From contig JAAYPW010000049.1 in the NCBI GenBank assembly GCA_012519615.1, forward strand, positions 1 through 51,531: a stretch of 51,531 nucleotides of DNA. Direction: 5' to 3'. The notes under the pieces are model-generated. The model was not told the origin of the DNA, searched no databases, and saw only the letters and a program-made list of their open reading frames with translations. The stretch is from Fusobacteriota bacterium. Lineage in GTDB: Bacteria > Fusobacteriota > Fusobacteriia > Fusobacteriales > JAAYPW01. Shown here in pieces: positions 20,428-44,046 of this stretch. The first letter of the stretch is position 1. The number at the start of each line of letters is the position of its first letter. A program made the position numbers and the translations under genes.

Positions 20428-20459
20428 TTAATCGGCAAGTTATACAACTTGCCGATTAA
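20428..20459 (+). repeat. Perfect 14 bp hairpin between gatB and the next gene
   Basis: TTAATCGGCAAGTT (20428-20441) and AACTTGCCGATTAA (20446-20459) are exact complements around a 4 nt ATAC loop. It is GC-rich for this genome. There is no T-tract on either side of the + strand; the downstream sequence is a run of A and then the next Shine-Dalgarno. It may be an atypical terminator, an mRNA-stabilising element or a processing site. Confidence 0.6.
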
Positions 20460-20484
20460 GGCATAAAAAAAGGTGGTGAATTTA

Positions 20485-21291
20485 TTGAAAAATAAAGATA
20501 AAAAAATTATATATTATAACGATAAATTTATTTTAAACAATGAGAAAAAAAATAAAGGTTTTTTGTACGGGCAAGGCTGTATAGAGGAGATAAAAATAAC
20601 TAACAATAAATTAAACTTAATTGATATACATATTGAAAAACTAGAAAAAAATATGAAAAGTCTCGATATATATAGAAAAATTGATTTTTATTCAATTATT
20701 AATGAATATACAAATCTAAAAGATACCGAAAATAATGAATATATCATTAATATTGTCGTTAACGACACAGAGTTATATATATCACTAGATGATACTAGAG
20801 AATATGAAAATTATAATAAAAATACATATGATATTAAAATAATCGAATCAGTTTATCATAATGAGTTATCTAATTACAATACTATAAATAGATTAACTGA
20901 TTTATTAGCTAAAAAAGAGATTATTAAGGAGCAATTAGATGATGGAATTTATATTAATAGAGAAAAAAATATTACAAATACAATTTATGGAAATGTTTTT
21001 TTTATAAAAAAGGGTATTATAAATACTCCAAAAAATACATTAAATATTTTAAATAGTGTATCCACAGAGTGTGTAAAAGAAATAATAAATAGTTTGGGGT
21101 ATAAGATACAATATGGTGAATATAAGTTAGATGATTTAATTGATTCAGATGGAATTTTTATAACTAATATATTTAGAAAAAATACAATTAATATTGTTAG
21201 GAAATTAAATAATATAGAAAAAAATAACTCAGAAAATATAATAGAAATAATAAAAAAAGAATATTTAAAAAAATATGAAAATATGTTATAA
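20485..21291 (+). CDS. Class IV aminotransferase-like protein lacking the PLP lysine
   Basis: This 268-residue protein follows the fold-type IV aminotransferase/aminodeoxychorismate lyase pattern: FLYGQGCIEEIKI at the N-terminus, the N-R-L-x(3)-LAKKEI helix, then ITNTIYGNVFFIKKGIINTP. In this family a Lys binds PLP in the position K-x-L/I-N; here it is Asn132 (YNTINRL). The conserved Glu of the VTE motif is Asn165. The 33-residue spacing fits the family. It therefore probably cannot form the usual internal aldimine. The start is TTG 20485, 7-8 nt after AGGTGG; GTG 20473 is inside that Shine-Dalgarno. Confidence 0.75.
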   Translation: MKNKDKKIIYYNDKFILNNEKKNKGFLYGQGCIEEIKITNNKLNLIDIHIEKLEKNMKSLDIYRKIDFYSIINEYTNLKDTENNEYIINIVVNDTELYISLDDTREYENYNKNTYDIKIIESVYHNELSNYNTINRLTDLLAKKEIIKEQLDDGIYINREKNITNTIYGNVFFIKKGIINTPKNTLNILNSVSTECVKEIINSLGYKIQYGEYKLDDLIDSDGIFITNIFRKNTINIVRKLNNIEKNNSENIIEIIKKEYLKKYENML

Positions 21292-21292: not shown

Positions 21293-21347
21293 ATATATAG
21301 CTGTATTATAAAAGATTGATTTGATAGGAGGACGTTATAAGTACAAA

Positions 21348-23327
21348 ATGAATAACAAAATGAACAATAAAATAAATAATAAAAGAATTAAAATTGTAAT
21401 AGGAGTATTTTATTTTGGATTCATATTGTTGATTGTAAATCTTTTTAAGATTCAAATTATAGAACATAAAAATTGGAAGAAAATTGCATATAAACAATAT
21501 TATACAAAGGAATACTTAGAAGATAAAAGAGGACAAATATTAACTTACGATAAAAAAGAAATTGCATATGATTTAGAATCTTACATATTAATATTAGATC
21601 CTTTTAGAATAAGTGATAAATATTTAGATGAAATCTCTTCGGTTATTTCTAGCGTGTTAAATCTTAATGAAGAAGAATTAAAAAATAAAATAAAGGTTGG
21701 TAAAGAAAATAAAAGAAGGTATTTAAATATTTCAAATAATGTTTTCGCAGAGGAAAAAGAGGAAATTTATAACTTATTAATTAAAGATAAAAAAAAGTTG
21801 GAAAGAGAATCAATAATTTCAGGTGTATTTTTTAAAGAAGACACTATACGTATTTTACCAGAGTTAGATTTATTTAAAAATATAATAGGATTTATTAATA
21901 TTGAAAAAGAGGGTATGTATGGTATTGAGAGAACATATAATAGCTATTTAAAAGGAACTAAAGGTTATAGCGAAACATATCTTTCAACACATAATAAATT
22001 TGAATTACCTCTAAAAAATCAATATAAAAAAGTTGAGGCTAAGGATGGAAATAATGTTATTTTGACTATTGATTATGTTATGCAACATATTTTAGATGAA
22101 AATTTATACAAAACTTTTATTGAAACCAATGCTGAATGGGCAGCGGGAGTTATAGTGTCTCCTAAAAATGGGAAAATTTTAGCAATGTCTTCTTTTCCTG
22201 TTAGTGATAGACTTGTGGATACAAGAAATAATGTGATTTATAATCAATATGAACCAGGTTCTGTTTTTAAACCAATTATAGTTTCTATGGCATTAAATGA
22301 AGGTGTAATCGATGAAAATAGCAGATTTTATTCAACAGGTAGAATAAAAAAATACAATACAATATTAAAAGATCATGGAAATGGTGTTATTGGAAACTTA
22401 AGCATCTCTGATATTATAGAAAAATCAAGTAATGTTGGCATGATAATGATTGGCGATAATATGACAAATCAAACTATGTATAATGGACTATTAAGATATG
22501 GATTTAATGAGAAAACAGATATTGAATTATCGGGAGAAAGAGATGTATCTGTTCCTAATTTAGCTAATTGGAGTGGACTTACTAAGCCAACAATCTCTTT
22601 TGGACAAGGGATCGTAGTTACACCAATTCAAATGGTAATGGGATTTGCAGCTGTGATTAATGGGGGATATTTATATAAACCAATAATTGTAGATCGAGTA
22701 GAAACACCTACTGGAGAAATTGTTTTAAAAAACAATCCACAATTAAAAAGAAGAGTTTTTGAAAATGAAAAAATTAGTGAAACTATGAGATTATATTTAG
22801 AAAGAGCAGTAGCAAACGGAACTGGAAAAGGTGCATATATAGAGGGGTATAATGTTGGCGGGAAAACAGGTACATCGCAAAAGGCAGGAAAAGGTGGATA
22901 TGCACGAGGTAAATATATTGCATCATTTGCAGGTTTTTTCCCTAGCGATGATCCAGAATATTTATGTCTAATAGTAGTTGATGAACCAAAACGAAAAATT
23001 TATGGTGGAGAAGTAGCTGCACCAGTTGCAAAAAAGGTATTTGAAAGAATTATAAAATATAAAAATATAATACCAAATAATATTAAAGAGAAAATAATAT
23101 ATCTTAAAGATGATGAAGTGCAGTTTAAAACATTAAAAATAGACACTGAAAAAAATATTATGCCTAATTTTGTTGGCTATTCTCTAAGGGATGCACTGGA
23201 ATTTTTTTCTGAAACAAATTACGAGATTATAATAAAAGGTTCTGGAAAAATTAAGAGCCATGAACCAAAGAGTGGTTCGTGTCTAGATAAAGTACAGAAA
23301 GTGTATTTAAATTTAGAAGAAATGTAA
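21348..23327 (+). CDS. Class B penicillin-binding protein (FtsI/SpoVD-type) with PASTA domain
   Basis: This 659-residue transpeptidase crosslinks peptidoglycan, probably at the septum. A short basic N-terminus and one membrane helix (about residues 14-33) are followed by the PBP dimerisation domain (EDKRGQILTYD) and the transpeptidase domain: S305-V-F-K308 (active Ser), S360-S-N362 and K506-T-G. A single PASTA domain is at about 602-658. ATG 21348 lies 16 nt after AGGAGG with no clear hairpin between, so ATG 21360 is also possible. Orthologues are usually named ftsI or spoVD. Confidence 0.93.
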   Translation: MNNKMNNKINNKRIKIVIGVFYFGFILLIVNLFKIQIIEHKNWKKIAYKQYYTKEYLEDKRGQILTYDKKEIAYDLESYILILDPFRISDKYLDEISSVISSVLNLNEEELKNKIKVGKENKRRYLNISNNVFAEEKEEIYNLLIKDKKKLERESIISGVFFKEDTIRILPELDLFKNIIGFINIEKEGMYGIERTYNSYLKGTKGYSETYLSTHNKFELPLKNQYKKVEAKDGNNVILTIDYVMQHILDENLYKTFIETNAEWAAGVIVSPKNGKILAMSSFPVSDRLVDTRNNVIYNQYEPGSVFKPIIVSMALNEGVIDENSRFYSTGRIKKYNTILKDHGNGVIGNLSISDIIEKSSNVGMIMIGDNMTNQTMYNGLLRYGFNEKTDIELSGERDVSVPNLANWSGLTKPTISFGQGIVVTPIQMVMGFAAVINGGYLYKPIIVDRVETPTGEIVLKNNPQLKRRVFENEKISETMRLYLERAVANGTGKGAYIEGYNVGGKTGTSQKAGKGGYARGKYIASFAGFFPSDDPEYLCLIVVDEPKRKIYGGEVAAPVAKKVFERIIKYKNIIPNNIKEKIIYLKDDEVQFKTLKIDTEKNIMPNFVGYSLRDALEFFSETNYEIIIKGSGKIKSHEPKSGSCLDKVQKVYLNLEEM

Positions 23328-23347
23328 AATGTGAGGGATGAAAAGAG

Positions 23348-23743
23348 ATGAAAAAAAATAAAATATTGTATTTAGATGATGAAGTAGAGCTCTTAGAATT
23401 TGTTAAATTTGTTCTTGAATATAACAATTATGAGGTAATTGTAGGTGAAAATTGGGATAAATCTTATTTTGAAATATTAAGTGATGTGGATATGATAATT
23501 TTAGATGTTATGTTTTCTAATGGAAATGCATGTGGATATGATATATGTAAAATAATTAGAGCTAAGGAAAAATATAGTAAAATTCCTATTTATATGTTTT
23601 CAGCAAAAACATTTCATGAAGATAAAATAAAAGCACAAGAAGCAGGTGCTAATGGATTTATAGAGAAGCCAGTCGAGGTAAAAGAACTATTAAGTATTGT
23701 TGAAAGTGTTGTAAATAGAGAAAATATCAATGCATTATTATAA
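23348..23743 (+). CDS. Stand-alone receiver-domain response regulator
   Basis: This 131-residue protein is a single receiver domain. The acidic pair is in LYLDDE, the phospho-acceptor is Asp53 (IILDVMF), the Ser of YMFSAK is in beta-4, and the switch Lys is in EKP. A few extra residues (SNGNACG) lie in the loop after the phospho-acceptor. With no output domain it must act by protein contact, as CheY or Spo0F do. No sensor kinase is nearby. It overlaps priA by 14 nt. Confidence 0.92.
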   Translation: MKKNKILYLDDEVELLEFVKFVLEYNNYEVIVGENWDKSYFEILSDVDMIILDVMFSNGNACGYDICKIIRAKEKYSKIPIYMFSAKTFHEDKIKAQEAGANGFIEKPVEVKELLSIVESVVNRENINALL

Positions 23744-32852: not shown

Positions 32853-33893
32853 TTATAGAAAAATCCAAGATAATACAATTAATAAAATAATAATTATAAA
32901 AAATAATATAATTATTTTGAATTTTTTATTTCTTATTTTTATAGAGAGAATTTCTTCTAAATTATTAATTTTTTCTTTATCAATTGAATAAATTTTATAA
33001 TGTTCTAAAATGTCCTGAAAATCCTTGATTTTTATAGGTTTATTTTTTAAACTTACAATTTCATCATACCATATTTGATTTCTATAATGTGATATCCATA
33101 GAAGAGGAGAGAAAATATTAAAAGGATTACTTAATTTAATCATAAGATCTTTTTCAAGACAACTATTTCCAGATGATGATATTGGAAATATATCTACTTT
33201 TTTTGAAAAAGATTTTATATTTTGATATATACGATTGTATATTTTATGTAAATTAATATAGTTAAAAGCTTTCTCTTTTTCATTATCTATATTGTCTTCG
33301 GAAAGATTATTATTAAAAAGATCCCACTTAGTAATAATTAGAGATATAGGTATAGAATTATACAAAGGATTTAAAGTTTTAATAGAGGATAATAATTTTA
33401 AAATTTCAGACTCTCTTTGTAAAGACTCGTCAATATCATTATTTGGATCTAAAAAAATTAGAATTCCACCACAATTTGCAAAAAAATTAAAAACTAGTTC
33501 TTGTTTTTTTTTAATATAACTTGCAACATTATAATCATTTTTATATTCATCAGGTACACCTAAAAGTAATTCTCCTGCAAAGTCAATGCTTTTTAATGAA
33601 AATTTTTGATTGTTAATTGTATAAGTCATATTAATTTTATGAATATTATTAGCGTCTGTACGGGGAGGGAATTCGCCTTTTATAAGATATTTATAGTTAT
33701 TTTTTAAATATTCCTTTGTTTCAAAATCATTACAATTAATTTTGATGTTACTATTATGTTGTTGCATCGTTTCCAATGCATATAAAGATGTAAAAAACAT
33801 CGTTTTACCAGAAGCACGAGCACCAAATACACCAATTGGTTTGTCATTGTATGTTTTTAAATCATCAATTTGTTTGCTTAATAAAGTTTTCAC
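32853..33893 (-). CDS. Tail-anchored P-loop GTPase-like protein
   Basis: This 346-residue protein has a GTPase signature set: Walker A GARASGKT (residues 24-31), G3 DFAGE, G4 ITKWD and a G5-like ISSSG. One membrane helix closes the chain (about 324-345), so the domain would face the cytoplasm as a tail-anchored protein. It resembles the double-GTPase (DO-GTPase) branch of TRAFAC proteins, an assignment from motif pattern only. It is a paralogue of the 37308 product; the first 31 residues align without gaps. The start is GTG 33893 with AGGAGTG 7 nt upstream. It is the only minus-strand gene. Confidence 0.7.
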   Translation of the reverse strand: MKTLLSKQIDDLKTYNDKPIGVFGARASGKTMFFTSLYALETMQQHNSNIKINCNDFETKEYLKNNYKYLIKGEFPPRTDANNIHKINMTYTINNQKFSLKSIDFAGELLLGVPDEYKNDYNVASYIKKKQELVFNFFANCGGILIFLDPNNDIDESLQRESEILKLLSSIKTLNPLYNSIPISLIITKWDLFNNNLSEDNIDNEKEKAFNYINLHKIYNRIYQNIKSFSKKVDIFPISSSGNSCLEKDLMIKLSNPFNIFSPLLWISHYRNQIWYDEIVSLKNKPIKIKDFQDILEHYKIYSIDKEKINNLEEILSIKIRNKKFKIIILFFIIIILLIVLSWIFL

Positions 33894-37307: not shown

Positions 37308-39521
37308 GTGGATGATAGATTAGAGAATAAGATAAATAAGTTGAAAAATTATAGTGAAAATCCAATAGGAGTATTTGGTGCAAGGGCATCAGGTAAAACT
37401 ATGTTTTTTACAATTTTATATGGATTAACTGGATTTAAAGATGATAAAAATCAATTCTCTGTACTTTGCAAAGATGAAGAAACTAGAAAATATTTAAGTA
37501 ATAACTATATGTATGTTTCAAAAGGGGAACTTTTACCTAGAACAGAAATTACACTTATGAGAAAAATTGTAATGGAGTTCATATTTAATCAGAGTGATTA
37601 TGCTTTAAAAAGTTTTGACTTTGCAGGAGAATTATTAAAAGAGAATTCAATGGAAGAAAAAGTTCTTGCGGATGTATTTTTAAAAAGACAGAAAAAAATA
37701 TATGAGTTTTTTGCCACTTGTAGTGGAATTCTTATTTTTATAGATCCAAGCGAAGATGATGATGAAATATTTAGAAGACAAGATGAAGTAAATAAGCTAT
37801 TAGGTTATATAAAGGATGAAAATGGTGCCTGGTCTAAATCTATTCCAATTGCTTTAGTTATAACGAAATGGGATAAAGTAAGTCAAGGGAAAAATGAAGT
37901 TGTTGAAAAGAAAAAAGCAATAGATTATATTGAAAACCATAAAGTTTATAAAAATGTATATAATATTTTACAAGGTGCTACAGATACAGTGGATATTTTT
38001 CCATTATCTGCATTTGGTGAATCAAAGGGTGAAGATTTACCACCAGATGATTTAAATCAACCTTTTAACTTGTTTGCACCGATGGTTTGGATATCTCAAA
38101 AAAGAGACGTTGATTGGAAAAATAAAATTAAAGAGATTTTTAAAAATGAAAAAATTAATGCAGCTGATGCAAAAGCTATAATTGATAATTTTAAAGACAG
38201 TGTTAAAAATCCTGAAATTCTTAAAGAAGTTGATAAAATATATAGTGCATATCTTGCAAAAGGGAGAAATAAAATAATAGCGATAATTGCACTAATTATC
38301 ATATTAATTGCTGGTTTTGGAGTTGGATATTTCTTCTATTCGGAAAAAAATAGAGAATCAATAGATTTTGATAAAGTATTAGCTGTTAGTAATAAAAGAG
38401 AGCAAATTGACAAAATTGATAATTACATTATAAAATACGGGGAAGAAAATTTAAATTCTAAAAAATTAATTGAAAAATTAAAAGATGTGTATAAAGAGGC
38501 AATTGATTTAGAAACTGATGTAAATCAAAAAGAGATTTTACTTAGTAAATTAGGTGATAGATTCGATGATGGTGAGACAATAGAATTTATAAATTCTAGA
38601 AAAATTGCTCTACAAGAGGAAAAAAGACAAAATGAAATTATACAAAGAAAAAAAGCTGATGCTGATACAGAATATAAATTATTAGAAACAATATGGAAAG
38701 ATAACTCTCCTAGTTTGAAAAAATATGAATATTCAAAAGCTTTCGCAACAAATTTCCCTGATTATAGACTGATAAATCTTGTAAAAGAAAATAGCGAAAA
38801 GTATTTAAAACTTGCAGATAGAGAGCTCTATGATGAAATAATTACATTAAGCGAAAATAAAAATAGAAATTTAAATATTATTTATGATAAAATTGAAACA
38901 TATCTTGTGAAAGCAGATTTTAAAGAGTATAAAACACTAGTTATTACTTTAAAAGAAAATCTTAAAGAAGAGGAATATTTTAGTTTTATTCAGTTAAAAG
39001 TCGAAGAATATAATAAAAATATTAATACAAATAAGGCTTTAGAACTTTCAAATGCTATTAATAGTTATTTAAAAAATAGTAAACAAAAAAAATTCCAAAC
39101 ACAAGCTAATGATTATAAAAATAAGTTAGCTACAATTAGCAAGGGAATAAGTGCAGATGTAGAACTATATACTGATATTTCAAATTTTAGAAGAGAAAAA
39201 TGTAATGTGGATATGAGAGTTGCAGTAACAAGTGAAATAAATAAAAAATCTGAAACTAAAATAATATTTAAATCAAAAGAAGATATTAATGGAACGATAA
39301 AAAATATGAATTATGTTGGAGTAGATAGAGCAAATATCATTTTAGATACCAAAATGGAAATACAAGTATATGTTACTACACCAGATAAAAATGAATATAT
39401 TTTTGGACCACAGGCAATAAATTTTGATAATGTTAATAAAGAAGTAGTTTTAAAGGGTCCTAATTCGGATCAAATAAAAGTAATGATAAAAATTAAAAAT
39501 GATTTATTTAAAATACAATAA
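37308..39521 (+). CDS. Membrane-anchored P-loop GTPase-like protein with large exported tail
   Basis: This 737-residue protein has a cytoplasmic GTPase-like domain with Walker A GARASGKT (24-31), G3 DFAGE (Asp104), G4 TKWD (186-189) and a G5-like PLSAFGE near 230. It is followed by one membrane helix (about 323-343). The remaining 390 residues would be outside the membrane: helical, TPR-like segments (345-605) and a beta-rich end (about 610-737). The first 310 residues are paralogous to the whole minus-strand gene at 32853. The start is GTG 37308 behind AGGATGG. It is followed 12 nt later by a partner membrane protein. Function is unknown. Confidence 0.7.
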   Translation: MDDRLENKINKLKNYSENPIGVFGARASGKTMFFTILYGLTGFKDDKNQFSVLCKDEETRKYLSNNYMYVSKGELLPRTEITLMRKIVMEFIFNQSDYALKSFDFAGELLKENSMEEKVLADVFLKRQKKIYEFFATCSGILIFIDPSEDDDEIFRRQDEVNKLLGYIKDENGAWSKSIPIALVITKWDKVSQGKNEVVEKKKAIDYIENHKVYKNVYNILQGATDTVDIFPLSAFGESKGEDLPPDDLNQPFNLFAPMVWISQKRDVDWKNKIKEIFKNEKINAADAKAIIDNFKDSVKNPEILKEVDKIYSAYLAKGRNKIIAIIALIIILIAGFGVGYFFYSEKNRESIDFDKVLAVSNKREQIDKIDNYIIKYGEENLNSKKLIEKLKDVYKEAIDLETDVNQKEILLSKLGDRFDDGETIEFINSRKIALQEEKRQNEIIQRKKADADTEYKLLETIWKDNSPSLKKYEYSKAFATNFPDYRLINLVKENSEKYLKLADRELYDEIITLSENKNRNLNIIYDKIETYLVKADFKEYKTLVITLKENLKEEEYFSFIQLKVEEYNKNINTNKALELSNAINSYLKNSKQKKFQTQANDYKNKLATISKGISADVELYTDISNFRREKCNVDMRVAVTSEINKKSETKIIFKSKEDINGTIKNMNYVGVDRANIILDTKMEIQVYVTTPDKNEYIFGPQAINFDNVNKEVVLKGPNSDQIKVMIKIKNDLFKIQ

Positions 39522-43104: not shown

Positions 43105-43851
43105 ATGGATGATAAAAACAAAAAATATAGTGATCATTTAAAAAAAAGTAAACTTATAGATAAAATGAATTATGCAATTGAAGGGATAATTGAAGCGATA
43201 ATTATAGAAAGAAATATGAAAATTCATTTTTTTGTAACCCTAATAATTATATTTATCTCTTTATTAGTTGGATTAAATAAAATTGAATTTGCATTGATTT
43301 TGATTGCAATAGCACTAGTCTGGATCACTGAAATAATAAATACTGCTATTGAAAAAGTTGTTGATATGAATACAAAAGAGTATAATGAGTATGGAAAAAT
43401 AGCAAAAGATGCAGGAGCAGGGGCAGTATTTGTCTCAGCAATACTTGCTATTGCAATTGGATATTTAGTTTTTTATAACCATTTTGAAAAAACAGGAAAT
43501 ACTATATCAAAATTTAAAAATAAAAAATTTATAAATATACATCATGCTATAATTATTTTATTATTGGTTTTGGTATTTGTTATTGGTTTAAAAGCATTTT
43601 TCAAAAAAGGAAGACCATTAGATGGTGGTATGCCAAGTGGACATAGTGCTGCAGCTTTCTCCATAGCGACGTCTATATTTTTTATTTCTAAAAGTTCTTT
43701 TGTTGGATTATTAGCATTTGGAATAGCTATGCTTGTTGCACAATCGAGAGTTCGTGAAAATGTACATACGGTAACAGAAGTTATAATAGGAAGTTTTGTT
43801 GGTTTTTCTATTACCTTTCTATCGTTTTATATATTATTGTCTATTAGTTAA
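43105..43851 (+). CDS. Fusion of undecaprenol/diacylglycerol kinase (DgkA) and PAP2 phosphatase
   Basis: This is 248 residues in two membrane enzymes. The first half (about 15-130) is DgkA-like: YAIEGIIEAI, ERNMKIHF, then ITEIINTAIEKVVD and GKIAKDAGAGAV, the kinase signature. The second half is a PAP2 phosphatase with motif 1 KxGRP (168-171), motif 2 PSGHS (177-181) and motif 3 SRVRENVH (to His221). In Gram-positive relatives DgkA phosphorylates undecaprenol, and PAP2 enzymes dephosphorylate undecaprenyl pyrophosphate, so the fusion likely serves lipid-carrier recycling. It abuts ybeY. The start is ATG with AGGAG inside ybeY. Confidence 0.9.
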   Translation: MDDKNKKYSDHLKKSKLIDKMNYAIEGIIEAIIIERNMKIHFFVTLIIIFISLLVGLNKIEFALILIAIALVWITEIINTAIEKVVDMNTKEYNEYGKIAKDAGAGAVFVSAILAIAIGYLVFYNHFEKTGNTISKFKNKKFINIHHAIIILLLVLVFVIGLKAFFKKGRPLDGGMPSGHSAAAFSIATSIFFISKSSFVGLLAFGIAMLVAQSRVRENVHTVTEVIIGSFVGFSITFLSFYILLSIS

Positions 43852-44002: not shown

Positions 44003-44046
44003 TAATTTAGATGAATAAAGATAAGGAATATATAAAGGAGGCAAAA

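Follow-up and report, generated by a model that had tools for sequence, protein, structure and literature searches.

A pabC-like gene beside a penicillin-binding protein gene

The window, which is the whole stretch of DNA analysed here, is one complete contig of 51,531 bp from the genome of a member of Fusobacteriales (158-contig draft, 25% GC, contamination 0.15%). At 20485-21291 on its forward strand, an open frame encoding 268 aa begins with TTG and contains neither a stop codon nor a frameshift; an earlier note on this DNA had already described the frame as intact. The near-consensus Shine-Dalgarno sequence AAGGTGGTGA (20470-20479, forward strand) directly precedes this start, 5 bases 5' of the TTG, and the TTG at 20485 is therefore favoured over a GTG at 20473, which would give a longer frame. 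Between gatB and this gene lies a perfect 12-bp inverted repeat with a 4-nt loop (20430-20457), which is terminator-like with a T tail on the minus strand only; no minus-strand gene is present there.

The encoded protein matched the Pfam Aminotran_4 profile (PF01063) over residues 31-228 (E 3.5e-22; 79.8 bits against a cut-off of 28.5) and has the same fold in its AlphaFold2 model, which places it in fold type IV and bears out its earlier description as a class IV aminotransferase homologue. When ranked by both sub-family models and structures, ADC lyase (PabC) was the nearest sub-family, followed by BCAT and D-amino-acid transaminase. The score of the protein against the NCBIfam ADC-lyase model was 85.4 bits, below the cut-off of 308; since its orthologue in genome G001, which has an intact active site, also fell below this value with 134.8 bits, the NCBIfam cut-offs were dropped as a measure of membership.

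Directly downstream is a gene for a PBP2-type class B penicillin-binding protein with a PASTA domain (21321-23327, forward strand; PF00905, E 4.7e-66); the same two genes are neighbours in six relatives. In five of these (G001, G058, G075, G077 and G078) the gene order is class IV gene, PBP2, pabB, priA, fmt and rex; most of them also have def and folD, and in G001 alone a response regulator gene and pabA lie between pabB and priA. The remaining relative, G079, has the same class IV-PBP2 pair, after which its contig ends. The order in the window is class IV gene, PBP2, response regulator, priA, def, fmt, rex and folD. Here, PBP2 and the response regulator gene are 20 bp apart, and this junction (23328-23347) marks the site that pabB occupies in the five relatives, and the response-regulator receiver gene (23348-23743, forward strand; profile match and gene order), which is followed by pabA in G001, is followed directly by an overlapping priA. 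Judged by gene order, pabB and pabA are absent from the window locus, the loss of pabA being judged against G001 only; linked pabB/pabA are present in the syntenic relatives.

From the shared gene order, the gene at 20485-21291 is the positional orthologue of the PBP2-linked pabC of six Fusobacteriales genomes. Its placement with the PBP2-linked clade in a quick tree, where it forms a long branch, was not strongly supported, and the orthology rests on synteny. No closer relative was found in a contig scan, which returned the G058 orthologue and distant homologues, or among 98 genomes of the phylum. In several Fusobacteriales (loci L030, L031, L089, L090 and L091), a PBP2-type gene lies among the pABA genes pabC, pabB and, in some cases, pabA, and the linkage of folate and cell-wall genes is recurrent in this order.

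Elsewhere in the window, an anaerobic ribonucleotide reductase (NrdD; 44011-46461) carries a C-terminal thioredoxin/glutaredoxin-like domain with a CPNC motif in the same chain, and a prokaryotic diacylglycerol kinase domain is fused to a PAP2 phosphatase domain (43105-43851). Two similar P-loop proteins with the motif GVFGARASGKT (32853-33893, reverse strand, and 37308-39521, forward strand) are of the Double-GTPase kind (PF19975/PF19993); both have hydrophobic stretches after the GTPase region and lie among genes for LRR, ankyrin and unknown proteins, and these genes may form a cluster for conflict or signalling.

Replacement of the PLP-site residues

We aligned the window protein with 71 homologues, 53 of them ADCL-like and the rest mostly BCAT-like. 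At the position of the Schiff-base Lys (Lys140 in P. aeruginosa PabC, PaPabC), the window protein has Asn132 (AAT, 20878-20880), and 33 residues further on, at the position of the PLP-N1 Glu (PaPabC Glu173), it has Asn165 (AAT, 20977-20979); both residues, the codon of Asn132 and the spacing were correctly read in the earlier note. The first column holds Lys in 70 of the 71 homologues and Glu in one, and the second holds Glu in 70 and Asp in one. The odd row in the Lys column is a second, short PabC encoded by the same genome, whose Lys adjoins the column within the motif EFKYEDR, and we read this as a shifted alignment; the Asp in the Glu column is also from this protein. No different Lys of the window protein was found at the Schiff-base position in the alignment.

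The replacements extend well beyond these two residues, to R52K, G191S, R194T, T35E, F33I and S229I. Lys52 (20638-20640) stands in place of the PLP-phosphate Arg (PaPabC Arg46), which is Arg in all 71 homologues, and Ser191 (21055-21057) in place of the phosphate-loop Gly (PaPabC Gly199), which is likewise invariant (71/71). At the conserved Arg corresponding to PaPabC Arg202 (Arg in 69 homologues, Lys in the other two, both BCAT-like), Thr194 was found (21064-21066). Ile33-Glu34-Glu35 (20581-20589, forward strand, as are all codons given here) replaces Phe-Glu-Thr (PaPabC Phe27-Thr29), so that Glu35 occupies the position of the catalytic Thr of ADC lyase (Thr28 in E. coli PabC, Thr29 in PaPabC), which is Thr in 53 of 53 ADCL-like homologues. 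The cleft residues His49, Glu34, Asn170 and Asn228 are retained.

In PaPabC, seven strictly conserved side chains surround PLP, namely Phe27, Thr29, His43, Arg46, Gly199, Lys140 and Arg202 (PMC3174152). Mapped by motif register, the window protein retains the His alone, the other six and the N1 Glu being replaced. Because no substituent at PaPabC Gly199 would fit without clashing with the phosphate of PLP (PMC3174152), Ser191 counts against PLP binding independently of the loss of Lys. From the combined replacement of the Lys, the Glu, the phosphate Arg, the loop Gly and Arg and the Thr, we infer that the window protein has lost the ability to form a Schiff base and, very probably, to bind PLP.

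It is highly improbable that PLP is still bound and supports a slow activity, either via Lys52 or without an internal aldimine. Mutants of D-amino-acid transaminase in which Lys145 is changed to Asn carry out partial reactions, and an N174K mutant of a Variovorax protein (see below) suggests that a natural Asn at the Schiff-base site exists. Lys52 also lies in the pocket where PaPabC Arg46 packs against Lys140 (PMC3174152), but a clash with the phosphate of PLP is predicted for G191S, and E165N, R194T and S229I take away the contacts that are left. An enzyme that has turned to PLP-independent chemistry in the old cleft, in line with the other chemistry suggested in the earlier note, is a little easier to envisage but still unlikely: the fold and the four cleft residues named above are kept, and Glu35, Lys52, Asn132, Arg136, Asn165 and Ser191 provide new polar groups in the cleft, yet the catalytic set is not recognisable and no metabolic partner genes adjoin.

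All six syntenic orthologues retain both the Lys and the Glu, indicating that the loss is specific to the window lineage. The genome is a draft in 158 contigs, but an origin of these changes in sequencing or assembly error or in contamination is hardly credible, because many independent codon changes are spread over the gene, the neighbours on both sides are intact, contamination is very low, and the losses from the operon agree with the change.

Probable displacement of the pab operon and selection on the remaining gene

The genome that contains the window has folK and folP, so that pABA is still needed. On another contig, C48, a gene for a PabB of the PRK07093 type (434.8 bits against a cut-off of 275) is followed by that for the short PabC, which keeps the Lys, Arg, Gly and Arg of the active site and has Asp in place of Glu; the same Asp is found in Thermus thermophilus PabC (PMC3174152). 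A search of the order's other 95 genomes gave no equivalent of the short PabC beyond weak general similarity, suggesting that this pabB-pabC pair was likely acquired horizontally. Contig C58 carries a trp operon with trpE and trpG, and this operon may supply the glutaminase subunit. The PabB of contig C48 (L032:5160-6320, G000) has two poly-asparagine runs near its N-terminus, which is unusual in bacterial enzymes; the genome has 25% GC. Given that pabB and pabA are gone from the window locus and that an unrelated, intact pair is present elsewhere, the old pABA operon appears to have been displaced, with its lyase gene left behind. Standard profiles class the gene at 20485-21291 as an aminotransferase or a lyase; the C48 gene pair is the one to which pABA synthesis should be assigned.

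The gene left behind has evolved rapidly. Its terminal branch is 1.71 in the window lineage against 0.81 in G001, while that of PBP2 is 0.51 against 0.77, and the window branch makes up 0.34 of the tree of the class IV gene as against 0.12 to 0.27 for neighbouring genes. Only 32 of 76 columns that are invariant among the orthologues are kept by the window protein, whereas each orthologue keeps 88-99% of the columns invariant in the others, suggesting that constraint has been relaxed over the whole protein. As 44 of the 76 columns are changed across the protein, a change confined to catalytic residues was ruled out. An excess of losses near PLP was seen at family-wide thresholds (Fisher p 0.012 to 0.06), but it was not significant at stricter ones (p 0.15) or on the orthologue-invariant columns (p 0.27), and we therefore do not build the case on this threshold-dependent excess.

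Relaxed constraint raises the question of whether the gene is simply decaying, and two simulations bear on this. In the first, functional orthologues drifted neutrally until half of 24 conserved columns were lost; the mean number of stop codons was 11-14 and none of 3200 runs was free of stops, as compared with no stop codon in the window gene. In the second, stop codons were forbidden and neutral drift was continued to the same 44 losses in 76 columns (n = 600). Scored with the family HMM, the resulting proteins reached a mean of about 33 bits and a maximum of 102 bits, as compared with 144 bits for the window protein, indicating that the fold remained under selection at the amino-acid level during the loss of the pocket. 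With no stop codon or frameshift and with amino-acid constraint indicated by the comparison with the simulations, a neutral pseudogene was rejected. The AlphaFold2 model (pLDDT 86.9, pTM 0.85) is compatible with an intact fold, and Foldseek matched it to fold-IV enzymes with E values down to 2.7e-21; because the input alignment held intact enzymes, the pLDDT speaks for compatibility with the fold and not for stability of the protein.

It is accordingly possible but rather doubtful that the displaced pabC is a relic on its way to becoming a pseudogene, its frame open by chance or because its translation spares the downstream PBP2 gene from polarity. The displacement of the pab operon, the protein-wide relaxation with a long terminal branch, and the AT-driven composition rich in Asn, Ile and Lys would all fit such a relic. 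However, the absence of the stop codons expected under neutral decay, the far lower family scores after stop-free neutral drift to equal loss, the preserved Shine-Dalgarno sequence and the confident predicted fold speak against it. The earlier note had taken orthologues that retain the Lys as a pointer to recent decay; they do retain it, as does the Glu in all six, but neither recent nor neutral decay is indicated, given the open frame, the selection and the predicted fold.

A putative PLP-free pseudoenzyme and its relation to known systems

Taking these data together, the loss is real and lineage-specific, and we consider it fairly probable that, after displacement of the operon, the former pabC has been kept as a folded, selected, PLP-free pseudoenzyme with a non-catalytic role. 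The view in the earlier note of a non-catalytic or repurposed PLP-fold protein is thus the best-supported reading, with the qualifications that the PLP pocket is more fully lost than it had claimed and that the loss is lineage-specific. Of the attributes of a pseudoenzyme, fold and selection are supported in silico, and the loss of activity is read from the residues.

In the course of events that we propose, the gene would have started as the pabC (ADC lyase gene) of an ancestral Fusobacteriales pABA operon. The new pabB-pabC pair would then have taken over pABA synthesis, freeing the old lyase from catalysis, and the Lys, the Glu, the phosphate Arg, the phosphate-loop Gly and Arg and the catalytic Thr, which the alignment shows to be replaced, could have been given up while the frame stayed open and the fold constrained, as the simulations and structure prediction indicate. 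That the folded pseudoenzyme now works without PLP chemistry would be the weakest step. Its most plausible role would be that of a small-ligand-binding or protein-binding subunit, acting through the emptied inter-domain cleft and the dimer surface, and perhaps tied to the constant neighbour PBP2, which suggests a link to the cell envelope. Rv0812, one fold-IV enzyme of Mycobacterium tuberculosis, acts both as ADC lyase and as D-amino-acid transaminase and may link the synthesis of folate to that of peptidoglycan (PMC8105722). We put forward only tentatively the fuller proposal, that after non-orthologous displacement of the pABA operon an ADC lyase has turned into a protein free of PLP that has taken on a new role, regulatory or structural, next to a class B PBP gene.

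To our knowledge, few pseudoenzymes of vitamin B6 folds have been described in fold type IV, and as a rule no more than their present state can be observed. Our literature search found no paper directly on PLP-less fold-type-IV proteins, on K145N or on the Variovorax structure. Here, the likely trigger can be seen, with pabB and pabA gone, a second, unrelated pABA pair present and six relatives keeping the ancestral state; if the protein is functional, this would be a traceable route from enzyme to non-enzyme.

Among known proteins, the ADC lyases of E. coli (1et0), P. aeruginosa (2y4r) and Legionella pneumophila (3lul) resemble the window protein in fold, length and best sub-family similarity, but the latter has other residues in place of the active-site Lys, Glu, Arg, Gly, Arg, Thr and Phe, and its locus lacks pabB/pabA. 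Mutants of D-amino-acid aminotransferase (E177S, 1g2w; K145) are altered at the same positions in the same fold; however, these are engineered single changes in PLP-bound enzymes, whereas in the window protein the changes take in the entire phosphate site too. The structure search also returned an aminotransferase-like protein of Variovorax paradoxus (7z79, TM 0.78) and its N174K mutant (9j32). The name of the mutant implies that the wild type has a natural Asn174 at the usual Lys site, and position 174 corresponds to position 132 of the window protein by the offset seen in 5k3w; the likeness is drawn from the mutant name and the fold, and the two proteins, from different lineages, share about 12-13% identity. 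A bare Lys-to-Asn change thus probably has a precedent in 7z79/9j32, and what is new at the window locus is that the pocket has been lost wholesale and that this goes with an operon displacement that can still be seen.
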